In this document: piece after piece, positions 5,369-64,000 of the stretch
How positions within the stretch are numbered: the stretch's first letter is position 1
Layout: every line of letters starts with the position of its first letter
NCBI GenBank assembly: GCA_003165075.1
Contig: PLSM01000167.1
Location: forward strand, 95,179-159,178
DNA length: 64,000 nucleotides
Direction: 5' to 3'
Source of the DNA: Acidobacteriaceae bacterium
GTDB taxonomy: Bacteria; Acidobacteriota; Terriglobia; Terriglobales; Acidobacteriaceae
Translations under genes and position numbers: made by a program
Notes under the pieces: generated by a model
What the model was told of the DNA's origin: nothing
What the model saw: the letters and a program-made list of their open reading frames with translations, nothing else
Databases searched by the model: none

Positions 5369-6277
5369 TTGTCTGACGTCTCAGATCACGGTACCAATGA
5401 GGGAACAGAGGTCCACGTCACTGGAGTCGTCGATGCGGAGGAGCCTGCATCCAGGTCCAAGTGGTACCACTGGCGCAAAAACGGCACCGCGCTGGTGCGC
5501 TATCTGCTGGACAGCGAGGTGCATACCTACGCTTTCAGTGTGGCCGCCAACGCAATCATCTCGTTCATTCCATTTATTGTGCTGCTCTACACGCTGTCCC
5601 GGTCGGTTTTTCACTCCGACATGATGGTGAATGTGGTGGGCAAGATGGTGCATTACTTTCTGCCCTCGAACCAAGACTGGGTCGCGGCCAGCCTGGCAGC
5701 AGCAGCGGCGCGACAAGGGGTGCAGTGGCTTTCACTGGTCATGATTCTCATCTCCTGCACGGGGATCTTTCTGCCCCTGGAGGTAGCGTTGAACCAGGCA
5801 TGGGGGGTGACCAAGAGCCGCAATTACCTGATGAACCAGCTGGTGGCGTTCGGGCTGGCGATCCTGATGGTGGGGCTCGCGATGGTGAGCATCCTGCTGA
5901 GCGCGTGGCAGCGGCAACTGCTGGGTTTCATCTTCTTTCACCACACCGACAACTTTGTGTTTGAGGGAATCAGTTACTTGTGGCTGGCGGCTTCAACCGG
6001 CGTGGCCTCGATTTTGTTTTTCTTTTCGATTTACTGGCTGCTGCCCAACCGCAGGATTCCGCCGCGCAATGTGCTGCGCTCTTCAATCGTGACTGGAGTG
6101 ATCTGGCTGTTGGCGAAGAATATCTACGTGGCGGTGCTGCCACATCTCGATCTGAAGGCGCTGTATGGGCCGTTTTATGTTTCTGTAGGCTTGCTTTTCT
6201 GGGCCTATGTTTCGGGGCTGATTCTGTTTGCAGGGGCGCAGTTCAGCGTGGCGCGATTTGGGAACGGGAAGAGTTAG
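5369..6277 (+). CDS. YihY/virulence factor BrkB family membrane protein
   Basis: Multi-TM protein with YAFSVAANAIISFIPFIVLLY...ALYGPFYVSVGLLFWAYVSGLILFAGAQFSVAR; TTG start in the track. Confidence 0.82.
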   Translation: MSDVSDHGTNEGTEVHVTGVVDAEEPASRSKWYHWRKNGTALVRYLLDSEVHTYAFSVAANAIISFIPFIVLLYTLSRSVFHSDMMVNVVGKMVHYFLPSNQDWVAASLAAAAARQGVQWLSLVMILISCTGIFLPLEVALNQAWGVTKSRNYLMNQLVAFGLAILMVGLAMVSILLSAWQRQLLGFIFFHHTDNFVFEGISYLWLAASTGVASILFFFSIYWLLPNRRIPPRNVLRSSIVTGVIWLLAKNIYVAVLPHLDLKALYGPFYVSVGLLFWAYVSGLILFAGAQFSVARFGNGKS

Positions 6278-6502: not shown

Positions 6503-6628
6503 GATACCCCCACTCCCCCCTATTCTGTAGTTAAATTCTTGATCTTAATGGACTTAGCGAATAGATGGTGCGCTAAATTCTTGAAAGCATTGGAGTTCTC
6601 CGCAGAATCTTCTCAGGAAAGGACTTAC
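6503..6628. repeat. Three-unit intergenic element, copy A
   Basis: CTCCCCCCTATTCTGTA leader followed by TTAAATTCTTGATCTTAATGGACTTA / CTAAATTCTTGAAAGCATTGGAGTT / CAGAATCTTCTCAGGAAAGGACTTA; aligns with 45478-45602. Confidence 0.85.
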
Positions 6629-6812
6629 TGTGTTTCCGTGGAGGAACCGTCTGCACCACCTTCATTTTCTCCAATTCAATTGTGCATGAAGACGAGGAAA
6701 TACTCTGCAAAGTTTTCTTCGAGTCGTGCGATTCATTGGGTGGGGCTGCCCAGTTCCGATGAGGGCGCGCTATGCAGGGGCGCCAGGGCTCTGACCGTTT
6801 GATTTCGTGCTT

Positions 6813-6862
6813 GCCCACCCTTGCGGCAAAAACAAATACGCCGCAAGGATGGGCCACCCATA
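6813..6862. repeat. Hairpin intergenic repeat, copy H2
   Basis: GCCCACCCTTGCGGC-AAAAACAAATAC-GCCGCAAGGATGGGC then CACCCATAT; near-identical to 36763-36812. Confidence 0.88.
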
Positions 6863-6895
6863 TAGTTCAACATCGTGAGGTCAGAGACTAGAGAT

Positions 6896-8104
6896 TTACT
6901 GCAGCTTGAATGATTTGACGGCGATGGCGTTGGGGGCGCGGCCGGCAGGGAGCATGGTGAAGAGCGGCAGCGTGAAGATCGAACGCGAGGCGGTGCGATA
7001 GACGGCCAGGTCGCCGGAACGTGTATCTACGATGAAGAGCAGGTGGCCGGCGGTTGAAAACGCCAGCGCCGAGGGGCCGTCTCCTACATGGATGGAACCG
7101 ACGCGCTTGCCATCGTCGATGGAGTAGACCGTTACCTCCTGCGAATGCTGATTGCCCACGTAGAGCGTTGAATTGTCGCTGGAGACAATGCCGCGTGCCG
7201 GGTTGTTGCCGATCATGAAGGTATCGCCGACTTCATTTGTCGTGGTGTAAACCTCTGAAACTGAGTCGGAGAGTGCGTTCGATACAAACACCTCGCCGCC
7301 ATCGGGCTTGAGAGCTAACTGCACCGGCGCGTGGCCCACATCGAGCAGCGATTCAAGGCGGTCGGGCTGGGAGGGGACAGTTTGTGGAGGCGCGGCCTGC
7401 GGCTGGCTCAACGCAATGACCATGACCTGGTGGCCGCCGGAGCAGGCGGCAAAGGCCTTGGACGAGTCAGGCAAGATCACGACATCGCCGGCGCCGGGAC
7501 ACCCTGCAAAGACCGCCCGCACCTGGCCGGTAGCCGGATCGATCAGGCTGACGGAGTTGCCACCTTGATTGGCGACTGCGAGGGTTTTGCCGTCCGGAGA
7601 GAGGCGAAGCGCGACCGGTCCCTCGCCGGTGCCGATGACGGCAATCTCGCGACGGGTCTTGAGGTCGAGGACGGAGATGCTGTTGGAACCGGAATTGGCC
7701 ACGTAGGCTCGTGCGCCTGTGGCGTCGAGGGCCAGGGCGACCGGCTGCCTGCGGACGGGAATGGTGGTTACCACCCGGTTGTTTTCAGTATCGATGACGG
7801 AGACCGAGCCCTGCGGGCCCGGCTGTCCAACGGGAACGCCGGAGTTGACCACATACACTTCATTGCGCGTGGGGCTGGCGGCGACGGCAACGGGATTCTG
7901 GCCCACAGGCAGCTCGCGATCAAGACGGACATTGACTACGTCGTAGATGGAGACGGTAGCACTGCCGCCGTTGGTCACGTAGGCGTATTCGCGGTAGTTG
8001 GGCGGATATTGAGGGAAGTCGTGGGGGCGGCAACCGGCGAGCGGAAGAGCCAGAAGGACGATGGCCGCAAGACGAGCGACACGACAGTCTTGCTCGCCGC
8101 GCAT
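6896..8104 (-). CDS. YVTN/NHL-type beta-propeller lipoprotein
   Basis: Lipobox MRGEQDCRVARLAAIVLLALPLAGC; repeated YVTNGGSATVSIYDV / AYVANSGSNSISVLDL / LYVGNQHSQEVTVY blades. Confidence 0.88.
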   Translation of the reverse strand: MRGEQDCRVARLAAIVLLALPLAGCRPHDFPQYPPNYREYAYVTNGGSATVSIYDVVNVRLDRELPVGQNPVAVAASPTRNEVYVVNSGVPVGQPGPQGSVSVIDTENNRVVTTIPVRRQPVALALDATGARAYVANSGSNSISVLDLKTRREIAVIGTGEGPVALRLSPDGKTLAVANQGGNSVSLIDPATGQVRAVFAGCPGAGDVVILPDSSKAFAACSGGHQVMVIALSQPQAAPPQTVPSQPDRLESLLDVGHAPVQLALKPDGGEVFVSNALSDSVSEVYTTTNEVGDTFMIGNNPARGIVSSDNSTLYVGNQHSQEVTVYSIDDGKRVGSIHVGDGPSALAFSTAGHLLFIVDTRSGDLAVYRTASRSIFTLPLFTMLPAGRAPNAIAVKSFKLQ

Positions 8105-8108
8105 CTGG

Positions 8109-9188
<1,080 letters not shown>

Positions 9189-36711: not shown

Positions 36712-36812
36712 AGAGCGTTCTTTGGCTTGACTGGCTACAGCCTAGATAGGCATCTGTGGTCTCCCATCCTTGCGGCAAAGACAAATACGCCGCAAGGATG
36801 GGGCTCCCATAT
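36712..36812. repeat. Hairpin intergenic repeat, copy H3 (14-bp perfect stem)
   Basis: AGAGCGTTCTTTGGCTTGACTGGCTACAGCC module, then CCCATCCTTGCGGC (36763-36776)-AAAGACAAATAC-GCCGCAAGGATGGG (36789-36802) and GCTCCCATAT. Confidence 0.88.
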
Positions 36813-45346: not shown

Positions 45347-45423
45347 GTCAGTGGTCAGTGGTCAGGGGTCAGGGGACAGTGGTCAGTGGTCAGTGGTCAG
45401 TGGTCAGTGGTCAGTGGTCAGGG
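45347..45423. repeat. Tandem heptamer array, 11 x 7 bp (GTCAGTG)
   Basis: GTCAGTG x2, GTCAGGG x2, GACAGTG, GTCAGTG x5, GTCAGGG counted directly. Confidence 0.97.
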
Positions 45424-45477
45424 AATAGGGTGAACAGTCTTTTCGGTTTGGGATGTGAGCGGTATCACCCTGTCGAG

Positions 45478-45602
45478 GTACCCGACTCCCCCTATTCTGT
45501 AAATAAAATCTCTATTTTCATGGGTTTACGGTAGGTCTTGCGCTGCAAAATCTTCATTTCATTGGATTTATCCGCAGAATCTTCTCAGGAAAGGAGTTAT
45601 GG
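45478..45602. repeat. Three-unit intergenic element, copy B
   Basis: GGTACCCGACTCCCCCTATTCTGTA then ATAAAATCTCTATTTTCATGGGTTTA / GCAAAATCTTCATTTCATTGGATTTA / GCAGAATCTTCTCAGGAAAGGAGTTA; aligns with 6503-6628. Confidence 0.85.
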
Positions 45603-46202
45603 GATAGTTGGCTAGCAAAACCGCACCTAAAGGCCACAGAAACGGGCAAAGTGAAGAGAAAAGAATACGGCCTTGGGCGGGCGAGGCGTTGACTTCTACA
45701 ACGGCGTGGGTTGAGTTGTTCCCCGTGTTTGCCTGCCTGATTTCAATTATGCGCGCGGGGAGAGAAATACTACGCAAGAGGGGGAATGACGCTGTTCGCA
45801 TTGGGATGATGGGATAAGGGCAGATGCGAGGCGGAACGGAGCTTGACAGATCGGTTGGGGTATCGCGAGCGGTGAGCGCATATGAGCTCTTCCATTGCGG
45901 ACCTTGAACGAGCGCTTCGGCGATTATGCGCGAACTGAAAAGCGTTCCCTCCGACATGGGCGTTTCAGGGGAGTAATCGTGACATTTGTGCTGACCAGTT
46001 CAACCATTAGATCCGAGTAAAACAATCCTGTGGCCAAGGAGGATCGCCGGGGCGCCAGACGCCGGCCTTTTCAGGGCGTAAATAACGAATACTTGCAACT
46101 ACTTGCACGACGTCGGGGGCAGCCGAAATAGGCGTAAGACGGGCCAATCACGGGTGAGGATAACTAGCCTCGAAGCCAAGCTGGGAAATCTGTGAAGTAT
46201 GA

Positions 46203-60798: not shown

Positions 60799-61932
60799 AT
60801 GAGTCTGCGTAACATGAAGTCTGTCTGCCTGGTTCTGGCTTCGGCCAGCATCGCCTTAATACCAATGGGGTGCAAGAAGGCTCCCCCGATCACATTGGCG
60901 TGCGCTGCTACGCCCCCAGCCCTCTTTGCCGGCGATCCGGTCACGGTGACCGCGACCCCCGGCGCAGTGAGCACCAAGAAGAAGAACAGCGTGGTTTACA
61001 GCTGGACCGGAACAGGAGTGACGGGCAACGGAGCCACGGCCACTGTGCCCACAGCTTCTCTGGATCCCGGAAGCTACACGGTGAAGGGAACGGTGAAGGA
61101 AGGCAAGCCGAGGAAGGAAGGCCTGAAGCCGGGCCAGTCCGCCGAGTGCTCTGCCAGCTTTACGGTGAAGGAATTTGAGCCGCCGACGGTAAGCTGCTCG
61201 ACCAATCCCAGCACGATCAAGCCGGGAGACACGAGCACCGTGACTGCCATGGGCACGAGCCCGCAGAACCGCCCGCTGACTTACAGTTATGCGGCGGCTG
61301 CCGGAACCATCAGTGGCAGTGGGACCACAGCGACATTCTCATCTACCGGCGCACCTGCCGGCTCGGTGGGGATTACCTGCACCGTGGCCGACGACAAGCA
61401 TCACACGGCAAACGCCGAGACCGGTGTAACGATTGTGGCGCCGCCACCGCCGCCGATTCCGCACACCCAGGCGCTTTGCTCAATGAGCTTCGACAAAGAC
61501 AAGCACCGCTCGACTCGCGTGGACAACGAAGCCAAGGCCTGCCTGGACGAAATCGCTCTTGATCTGCAGAGGCAGTCCGACGCCAAGGCCGTGATAGCTG
61601 GCGATTCAAATGCCAAGGAGAAGGCGAAGACCGCGAAGGAAGAGAAGTTTGCGGCCAAGCACAAGCATGCCAAGGTTGAGGATTCCGCCGCACAGCGCGC
61701 CGTCAACGCCAAGGATTACCTGGTGAAGGAAAAGGGCATTGACCCCTCTCGCATCACCGTGGTGACTGGTGCTGAGGATGGCCAAAAGGTGGAAGACTAC
61801 CTGGTGCCCGCAGGCGCCACCTTCTCGACCGATGTTTCCGGAACCACCGCGGTAGACGAGTCGGCAGTGAAGGTCCAGGCACGGAAACCTCTGGGCGCGC
61901 GGCATCACAAACACGCGGCCAAGGAAAACTAA
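60799..61932 (+). CDS. Lipoprotein with two Ig-like repeats and diverged OmpA-like C-terminus
   Basis: Lipobox SIALIPMGCKKAP; DPVTVTATPG..., repeated Ig-like modules; C-terminal AQRAVNAKDYLVKEKGIDPSRITVVTG. Confidence 0.75.
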   Translation: MSLRNMKSVCLVLASASIALIPMGCKKAPPITLACAATPPALFAGDPVTVTATPGAVSTKKKNSVVYSWTGTGVTGNGATATVPTASLDPGSYTVKGTVKEGKPRKEGLKPGQSAECSASFTVKEFEPPTVSCSTNPSTIKPGDTSTVTAMGTSPQNRPLTYSYAAAAGTISGSGTTATFSSTGAPAGSVGITCTVADDKHHTANAETGVTIVAPPPPPIPHTQALCSMSFDKDKHRSTRVDNEAKACLDEIALDLQRQSDAKAVIAGDSNAKEKAKTAKEEKFAAKHKHAKVEDSAAQRAVNAKDYLVKEKGIDPSRITVVTGAEDGQKVEDYLVPAGATFSTDVSGTTAVDESAVKVQARKPLGARHHKHAAKEN

Positions 61933-61947
61933 ACTGGTGAATCAGGA

Positions 61948-61975
61948 CGCCCGTTCCCCCATTGGGGAGCGGGCG
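61948..61975. terminator. Strong hairpin after the lipoprotein gene
   Basis: CGCCCGTTCCCC-CATT-GGGGAGCGGGCG, 12-bp stem with one G-U; no long U tract. Confidence 0.5.
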
Positions 61976-62460
61976 CCTTAAACGAACGTAAAGAAGGCCA
62001 AGCTGCCAGGCTCCTGTGTCGCTGAAGACTGGGAGCCTGAGCGGCTCGGGAGAAAAGTGGCGAGCCACCGATTCGTCCGGATCGGGTTTCCGGTGAGCCT
62101 CTTTCTGCTAGTTATCCATATTTCGTATATGCTCCGGGGATTCAAAAACAGGTACGTATAGCATCTGAACGCGAACTCCACAGCCAGCTATGAACCTAGC
62201 GGGCTGAGTGAATTGGGATTGAAATCCGGCTCTGCCTATTACAAAAGTAACAGGTTACTGAGTACGGGTTTTGGGGGTGTTGCGGAAGGCAACCTGTTGG
62301 AAAATTGTGCTGTCGCGATCACTCATATGTTACTTTTAGATTGTTGTTTCGAGTTTTTTTGAAGTGCCGCCTGCACGCCGCTCGCACGGTACCAGCGGGG
62401 GCGGCTCACAAAGGCACCTCATCCCAAGATGAGTTTCAGTTTTTTGCGGAGGAAAATCGC

Positions 62461-64000
62461 ATGTATTCGCGGATTTTAAAGTCTGTTTGCCGGGTTCTGG
62501 CCTTGGCGTGTGTTGTTCTCATGCCGGTTGCGCTGGTAGCCCAGGGTTCTTCGAGGCCGGCAGTCAAGGCCGATTCGGGGGATACCGCTTCAAGGTGGGA
62601 TATCTTCGCCGGCTACAGCTATCTGGCGCCGAAAGGGACCGTGAATGTGCCACAGCCGTCCGGCGCCACAGTGCCTTTCAGCTACGACTCCGTCAACGTG
62701 GGCGGGCTGGGCAGCGTGGCCTACTTCTTCAACCGGTATGTCGGCGCTCAAGCAGAAATCGGCATACATGAGTGGGGCAAGGGTTCCGACACCAGCAACA
62801 TCGGCGAGCATGGGAACGATGATGGTTTCTTTACCGTCGGCGGCGGCATTATCGCACGCTATCCTACTTCTGACATCACGCCGTTTATGCACGCACTAGT
62901 GGGTACGGCGCGGATCGACGGCCCCGACCACAACCCATTTACATGGGGACCGGCTCTGACACTCGGCGGCGGAATGGACTATAACACGCCGCTGTTCAAT
63001 CACCGTCTCTCGATCCGCATCTTTCAGGCGGACTACGAGTGGATGCACGCCGACTTTGGTACGGGCGCCTTCGGCGGCCGCGCGAACATCAATGCAGCGC
63101 GCCTGAGCGCAGGCATTGTCATTCACGCCGGCAGCATCGCGCCGCCTCCGCCGGTGACCCTGGTATGCTCGGCCAGCCCCGACTCGGTCTTCCCTGGCGA
63201 TCCGGTCACGGTGACGGCGACGGCCGGGATGCTGAATCCCAAACTAAACGCGGTTTACAGCTGGTCAGGAGACGGAGTGACGGGCAATGGAACCACAGCG
63301 ACCGTGAACACCGGCTCATTGGCTCCGGGCACCTACACCGTAAAGTGCGGAGTGAAGGAAGGAAAGCCCGGCAAGGAAGGTCTGAAGCCGTGGGAGAACG
63401 CCGACAGTACGGCGACCTTCACGGTGAAGAAGTTCGAGCCGCCGACTATCAGCTGCTCGGCTAACCCCAGCAGCATCAACGCGGGCGACAGCAGCACGAT
63501 TACGGCCACGGGCATGAGTCCCCAGAACCGTCCGCTCACTTACAGCTACGCGGCAGCGGCTGGCACGATCAGCGGCAGCGGAACCACGGCGACGTTCTCT
63601 TCGGCAGGCGCTCCGGCAGGCCCCATAGAGATCACCTGCAACGTGTCTGACGACAAGGGGAACACAGGCAGCGCGACCACTACGCTGACCATCGTGGCGC
63701 CGCCTCCGCCGGTGGTACAGCACACGCAGGCGCTTTGCTCGATCACCTTCGACAAGGACAAGCATCGTCCACTGCGCGTGGACAACGAAGCCAAGGCCTG
63801 TCTGGACGAGGTAGCTCTCGACCTGCAGAAGCAGTCAGATGCGAAGGCCGTGGTGGTTGGCGATGCGAATGCCAAGGAGAAGGCGAAGACTGCCAAGCAA
63901 GGGGCGTATGCGGCCAAGCACAAGCATGCCAAGGTGGAAGACTCCGCCGCGCAGCGCGCCGTCAACACCAAGGACTACCTGGTGACCGAGAAGGGCATTG
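62461..64000 (+). CDS. Outer-membrane beta-barrel protein fused to Ig-like repeats and OmpA-like C-terminus, truncated by the window end
   Basis: MYSRILKSVCRVLALACVVLMPVALVAQ signal; WDIFAGYSYLAPKG...FFNRYVGAQAEIGI barrel; then modules matching the 60799-61932 product. Not in the ORF track because it runs off the edge. Confidence 0.85.
   Translation, partial: MYSRILKSVCRVLALACVVLMPVALVAQGSSRPAVKADSGDTASRWDIFAGYSYLAPKGTVNVPQPSGATVPFSYDSVNVGGLGSVAYFFNRYVGAQAEIGIHEWGKGSDTSNIGEHGNDDGFFTVGGGIIARYPTSDITPFMHALVGTARIDGPDHNPFTWGPALTLGGGMDYNTPLFNHRLSIRIFQADYEWMHADFGTGAFGGRANINAARLSAGIVIHAGSIAPPPPVTLVCSASPDSVFPGDPVTVTATAGMLNPKLNAVYSWSGDGVTGNGTTATVNTGSLAPGTYTVKCGVKEGKPGKEGLKPWENADSTATFTVKKFEPPTISCSANPSSINAGDSSTITATGMSPQNRPLTYSYAAAAGTISGSGTTATFSSAGAPAGPIEITCNVSDDKGNTGSATTTLTIVAPPPPVVQHTQALCSITFDKDKHRPLRVDNEAKACLDEVALDLQKQSDAKAVVVGDANAKEKAKTAKQGAYAAKHKHAKVEDSAAQRAVNTKDYLVTEKGI

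Follow-up and report, generated by a model that had tools for sequence, protein, structure and literature searches.

A constrained three-site DNA element of gene ends dispersed in genomes of one family of Acidobacteriota

Introduction

Dispersed intergenic repeats of bacteria mostly pass for selfish or fossil DNA, since it is difficult to demonstrate selection on an individual copy. The hallmark of REP/BIME repeats is a palindrome of 20–40 bp able to form a stem-loop, and the sites of Noc, SlmA and MatP and the KOPS motifs are chromosome-wide protein sites, dispersed in dozens for a host protein. The BIME/REP elements of enterobacteria and pseudomonads, including RIB/RIP arrays with IHF sites, are dispersed, intergenic, frequent at gene ends and built as composite arrays of protein sites (PMC1525189; PMC2817692). 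REP elements are also targets of the insertion sequences IS3, IS110, IS4, IS256 and IS5, a list that does not contain IS1595 (PMC1525189).

The element described here came to light as two copies, A and B, in the window, i.e., the whole 64,000-nucleotide stretch of Acidobacteriaceae DNA that was analysed. The open-access literature searched contained nothing on such elements in acidobacteria and, within these limits, the element is previously undescribed. It shares with the BIME/REP elements a dispersed, extragenic distribution in many copies, a location at gene ends and use as an insertion-sequence target. Unlike them, it lacks stem-loop palindromes, has exactly three sites in one fixed register, is oriented asymmetrically relative to the upstream gene, is under selection in individual copies and is targeted by IS1595. 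Dozens of dispersed copies, for a putative host protein, also recall the sites of Noc, SlmA, MatP and KOPS, but here the copies are arrays of three sites with a leader and a second box. A likeness to MITEs is limited to one subfamily (subfamily B), which has terminal inverted repeats and TNA target duplications; most family members, both in other genomes and in the window, have no terminal repeats, and the conserved part is an internal module rather than the ends. What the results below establish is a three-site element at the ends of genes that is under constraint at the level of DNA.

Architecture of the Element and Its Copies in the Window

The original prediction placed a three-unit element at 6503–6628 and 45478–45602, with a common end to the leader and a nearly identical third unit. 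Both copies were found there; their ungapped alignment extends over 112 nt with 74% identity (family D3: 6516–6627 vs 45488–45599), they share the leader end CCCCCTATTCTGTA, and their third units are as alike as described. Copy A, on the plus strand, begins with a C-rich leader (6506–6529) that was delimited from the sequence, ends in CCCCCCTATTCTGTA and corresponds to columns 1–17 of R2, the genus-wide core model. Unit 1 (6532–6556, alignments A2 and A3) is separated from unit 2 (6573–6597) by a linker (6557–6572) of fixed length and free sequence, which in other copies is the insertion point of IS1595; unit 3 occupies 6600–6627. The right box of this copy, ATTGTGCATGAAGACGAGGAAATACTCTGCAAA, lies at 6679–6711 (score 18/21; R3 model, E = 2e-6). 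In copy B, also on the plus strand, the C-rich leader (45478–45501, again delimited from the sequence) is followed by units 1, 2 and 3 at 45504–45528, 45546–45570 and 45572–45599 and by the right box ATTATGCGCGCGGGGAGAGAAATACTACGCAAG at 45746–45778 (score 18/21; R3 model, E = 9.5e-4).

The general order is a C-rich leader, three units, a spacer of 27–360 bp and the right box, a second conserved block that is absent from the original prediction and extends the element past the third unit. The regular three-unit plan seen in the two copies holds for the family: a search with the unit profile within 200 bp of 80 copies found no fourth unit (0.2 expected), the number of units is always three, and their ends are 42 and then 29 bp apart. 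The core, of about 103 columns, is free of indels in 72 of the 93 genus copies and contains one single-base indel in the other 21, and the information content in these copies is 0.46 bits per column for the linker that joins units 1 and 2, against 0.94–1.15 bits in the units. Each unit (about 25 bp) reads as an imperfect dyad with a half-site of roughly AAnTCyTTTG / CAAAGGAgTT. In 27 of 93 copies, the reverse strand of the core is also recognised by the core model, each time at about columns 8–97, so that unit 1 approximates an inverted copy of the segment that runs from unit 2 to where unit 3 begins; in the G316 lineage, the three units are plain direct repeats.

The right box has the form ATTRTGCGCC-N9-AAATWNNNTGCAAA, and its free segment measures precisely nine bases in almost every copy. 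It scores at least 17 in 66 of 80 copies, compared to a maximum of 15 in shuffled sequences and upstream flanks.

Distribution among Genomes

The likeness of copies A and B is far from a chance one, as matches to the core occur genome-wide. The leader word has 22 exact matches in the source genome of the window (5.68 Mb, 194 contigs), and a search of this genome with R1, a sequence-only core model made from 25 copies, yielded 60 matches at E ≤ 0.01, including 54 at E < 1e-14, the E-values of such home-made models being rough. Copy A belongs to a small subfamily there (L006, L007, L011 and L016–L018), and copy B represents an intermediate type; most copies in the genome are of a third, larger type. 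The core recurs in relatives as well: the R2 search located it in 39 of the 81 genomes of the genus, with from 1 to at least 64 copies per positive genome, the counts from multi-genome searches being lower bounds.

The core is also present in many other genera of the family. In a sample of the class, 47 of 299 genomes were positive, nearly all of them from the family of the window genome, and in a phylum-wide sample all 17 positive genomes out of 297 belonged to this family. No genome of the phylum-wide sample beyond the family gave a match at E ≤ 1e-4, and this confinement doubles as a specificity control. The plasmid collection searched contained no core match. About half of the genus genomes (42/81), including complete ones such as G061, gave no match, which means that the element is dispensable, whatever its role.

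Folding of the Core and RNA-Based Explanations

The consensus fold of the core is weak (−1.38 kcal/mol, with no compensatory pairs), and the mean folding z-score on both strands is near 0 in most genomes; on these results, an RNA fold of the core was rejected for both strands. The Rfam 15 covariance models gave no match to the window at gathering scores. The original prediction had proposed a multi-site protein-binding or a structured element; the first part agrees with the further copies, the three units, their register, the intergenic location, the orientation and the presence in relatives, while the second is not supported, as the core has no RNA fold. The length of the core is kept where its sequence drifts and, together with the lack of a fold, this is as expected of protein sites on DNA.

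Some lineages do offer features reminiscent of RNA genes. In genome G007, nearly all copies (L090–L109) have a leader that is A-rich with GGG instead of C-rich and that on the minus strand reads as a hairpin followed by a T-tract (GGGAATTTCTTTACAGAAATACCC-T-tract); in the genus g19, the right box starts, on the minus strand, with a TATAAT-like word. A small RNA gene read leftwards, with the right box as its promoter and the leader as its terminator, or an RNA motif of 3′ UTRs, would account for these features and for the terminator with a compensatory change found in the g19 spacer (see below). Such a gene or motif is nevertheless quite improbable, given that the core does not fold on either strand, the leader hairpin is peculiar to G007 (leader z-scores are near 0 in most other genomes), the TATAAT-like word has no −35 sequence at the usual distance, and a linker of fixed length but free sequence is atypical of RNA.

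The folding results bear equally on the suggestion that the element is a REP/BIME family kept by a REP-associated tyrosine transposase (RAYT). The habitat is the same, with many intergenic copies at gene ends that serve as insertion-sequence targets (PMC1525189), but the element has no hairpin-forming palindrome, as the consensus energy and the z-scores indicate, and its three-site array is fixed, in contrast to the variable pairs of REPs. Y1_Tnp (PF01797) transposases are encoded in 80 of the 81 genus genomes irrespective of the presence of the element; with such near-universality their distribution gives no co-occurrence signal for RAYTs. This origin appears very improbable. Group II introns, integron attC sites, dif/XerCD sites and Tn7 ends had been raised from sequence resemblance only, with no test in support of any of them.

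Position Relative to Genes

The non-coding location noted for the two window copies is general: none of the 73 copies with flanks, from 16 genomes, overlaps a predicted gene, these loci being the top-scoring matches rather than a random sample, and the genes being called by a home-made codon-score gene finder trained for this analysis. In 51 of 72 cases, the gene that precedes the leader is directed at the element, and the surroundings are convergent in 29 cases versus 9 divergent ones; among the gaps of the window, the divergent ones hold more intergenic sequence than the convergent ones. Copy A obeys this gene-end rule, with the gene at 5369–6277 pointing in and a convergent gene at 6896–8179. 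Copy B, situated in a divergent gap, is an exception.

In the genus g19, the distance from the stop codon to the beginning of the leader is often no more than a few tens of bases. Most spacers there contain an intrinsic terminator, in which one change is clearly compensatory (CTCCAC/GTGGAG vs CTCCGC/GCGGAG).

With dnaA taken as the origin, 129 of 208 copies (62%) in eight genomes lie on the leading strand. A bias this weak led us to reject replichore polarity, and it is expected if the copies follow their upstream genes; it is far from the polarity of KOPS, whose strong switching of strands at the origin was not seen in these genomes.

Selection on Resident Copies

Four genomes of the genus g19, which is different from the genus of the window, have copies at orthologous places, with coding flanks that are approximately 88–95% identical. 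Core columns were sorted into conserved and free ones on the basis of all the other loci, and the differences between orthologues were counted at the left-out locus. Conserved columns differ in 14 of 457 comparisons (3%) and free columns in 131 of 299 (44%), and the intermediate column classes fall between these values. Gene conversion among the copies would affect free columns too, and a resident copy is not a target of selection for mobility; since neither process fits the pattern, the resident copies are maintained in place. The g19 orthologues thus demonstrate that individual copies are under selection where they sit.

In the same genus, the left flank is conserved in every orthologue set examined, and the right flank past the element is unalignable in several sets and contains different genes (L246, L260 and L247; L237 and L243; L262 and L268). 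This asymmetry may indicate that insertions are tolerated behind the element.

Association with Mobile DNA

In the source genome of the window (G000), the core of subfamily B (L001–L061) is carried in a 505-bp repeat with terminal inverted repeats, the ends being AGAGCCTGTC/GACAGGCTCT and AGAGCCTGTCAAA.../...GACAGGYTCT. Identical 3-bp TNA flanks surround 8 of the 11 intact copies, and the subfamily thus has both terminal inverted repeats and target-site duplications, the features of a MITE; these ends recur in the relative G032. Some of the copies in the source genome are therefore due to transposition of this MITE-like carrier. At the window copies (L007 and L008), no terminal-repeat match above background and no target duplication were found.

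Mobile DNA also enters the element from outside. Four cores of G000 (in contigs C122, C108, which has two, and C74) are interrupted at an identical position, where unit 1 ends, near the centre of symmetry of the core. Three of the interruptions are flanked by 8-bp target duplications (TTTACGAC, CTGGCGAG and TTTAGGGT), and the fourth extends beyond the end of its contig. Apart from this last case, the interruptions adjoin IS1595-family transposases, and the inserts whose genes can be read code for at least two kinds of these enzymes, in both orientations. A fifth interrupted core, in another genus, is broken at the same column and adjoins an IS1595-family transposase. Several independent IS1595-family inserts at this point of the core are represented by L031, L223 and L224 (G000 contigs C122 and C108) and L270 (contig C2 of G188). 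Copy L014 was considered as an autonomous parent, in which the core would have formed the left terminus of an IS1595 element, and was rejected, because units 2–3 and the right box resume after the insertion sequence; the resumed core and the 8-bp duplication identify an insertion.

The element could, alternatively, be a non-autonomous transposon spread in trans, or the end of one, the units and the right box being binding sites of a transposase. The patchy and highly variable copy number among relatives, the 505-bp unit of subfamily B with its terminal inverted repeats and identical flanks, and the conservation of the ends while the spacers differ between copies would all suit such an origin. 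We regard it as rather unlikely in view of the selection on immobile orthologous copies, which selection for mobility leaves unexplained. Moreover, outside the MITE-like subfamily of G000 and G032, neither inverted terminal repeats nor target duplications were observed, no core was found to be separated from its right box by a transposase gene belonging to the element, and the insertion sequences inside cores are insertions with duplications of their own.

Proposed Function

The reading that we prefer is a three-site protein-binding insulator at gene ends, BIME/RIB-like in its working but not one of these elements, to which we assign a probability of roughly 0.55. The element would be a cis-acting DNA module of three dyad sites of about 25 bp in a 42 + 29 bp register, with the C-rich tract ahead and the box downstream. 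The dyads, the fixed register and the selection suggest that a protein binds to it, and a putative dimeric DNA-binding protein, similar to nucleoid proteins or repressors, may occupy the three sites cooperatively. The occupied sites would then form a nucleoprotein knot just past the gene ends. The position, the orientation and the terminator in one genus point to insulation as the likeliest job, in which transcription and supercoiling leaving a gene would be stopped or buffered, above all between convergent genes; in g19, the spacer additionally holds the intrinsic terminator.

Several observations do not sit easily with this proposal. Copy B lies in a divergent gap, a setting in which insulation of gene ends would have little purpose, and the 29-bp step corresponds to 2.8 helical turns, which is not a whole number. 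The lack of a match in about half of the genus genomes makes its function dispensable, and the mobile repeat of subfamily B makes its abundance partly a matter of transposition.

A broader version, in which a dedicated putative protein marks the 3′ ends of some 50–60 genes throughout the family by means of a selected three-site nucleoprotein insulator that is also a landing site of IS1595, is possible but doubtful. If true, it would represent a new class of bacterial cis-element, in acidobacteria, and would mean that a poorly understood group of bacteria dominant in soil has a counterpart of the BIME/IHF type of gene-end organisation. Selection on single repeat copies is directly visible in the orthologues here, which makes the use of repeats to their host a testable question, and the simple, constant architecture of the element renders it usable as bait for its putative protein.

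Other Repeats in the Window

A tandem tract of the heptamer GTCAGTG (45347–45430, D4) lies directly 5′ of copy B. A second dispersed palindromic repeat, CCTTGCGGCAAAAACAAATACGCCGCAAGGATGGGCCACCC, is present at 6807–6863 and 36756–36812, with 88% identity between the two sites (D6), and the related-looking sequence TCTCAGAAGCGAGCATGGGCCACCC directly precedes copy A. The region 60881–63987 contains a direct duplication with a period of 2.26 kb and 71–83% identity (D1, D2 and D5).
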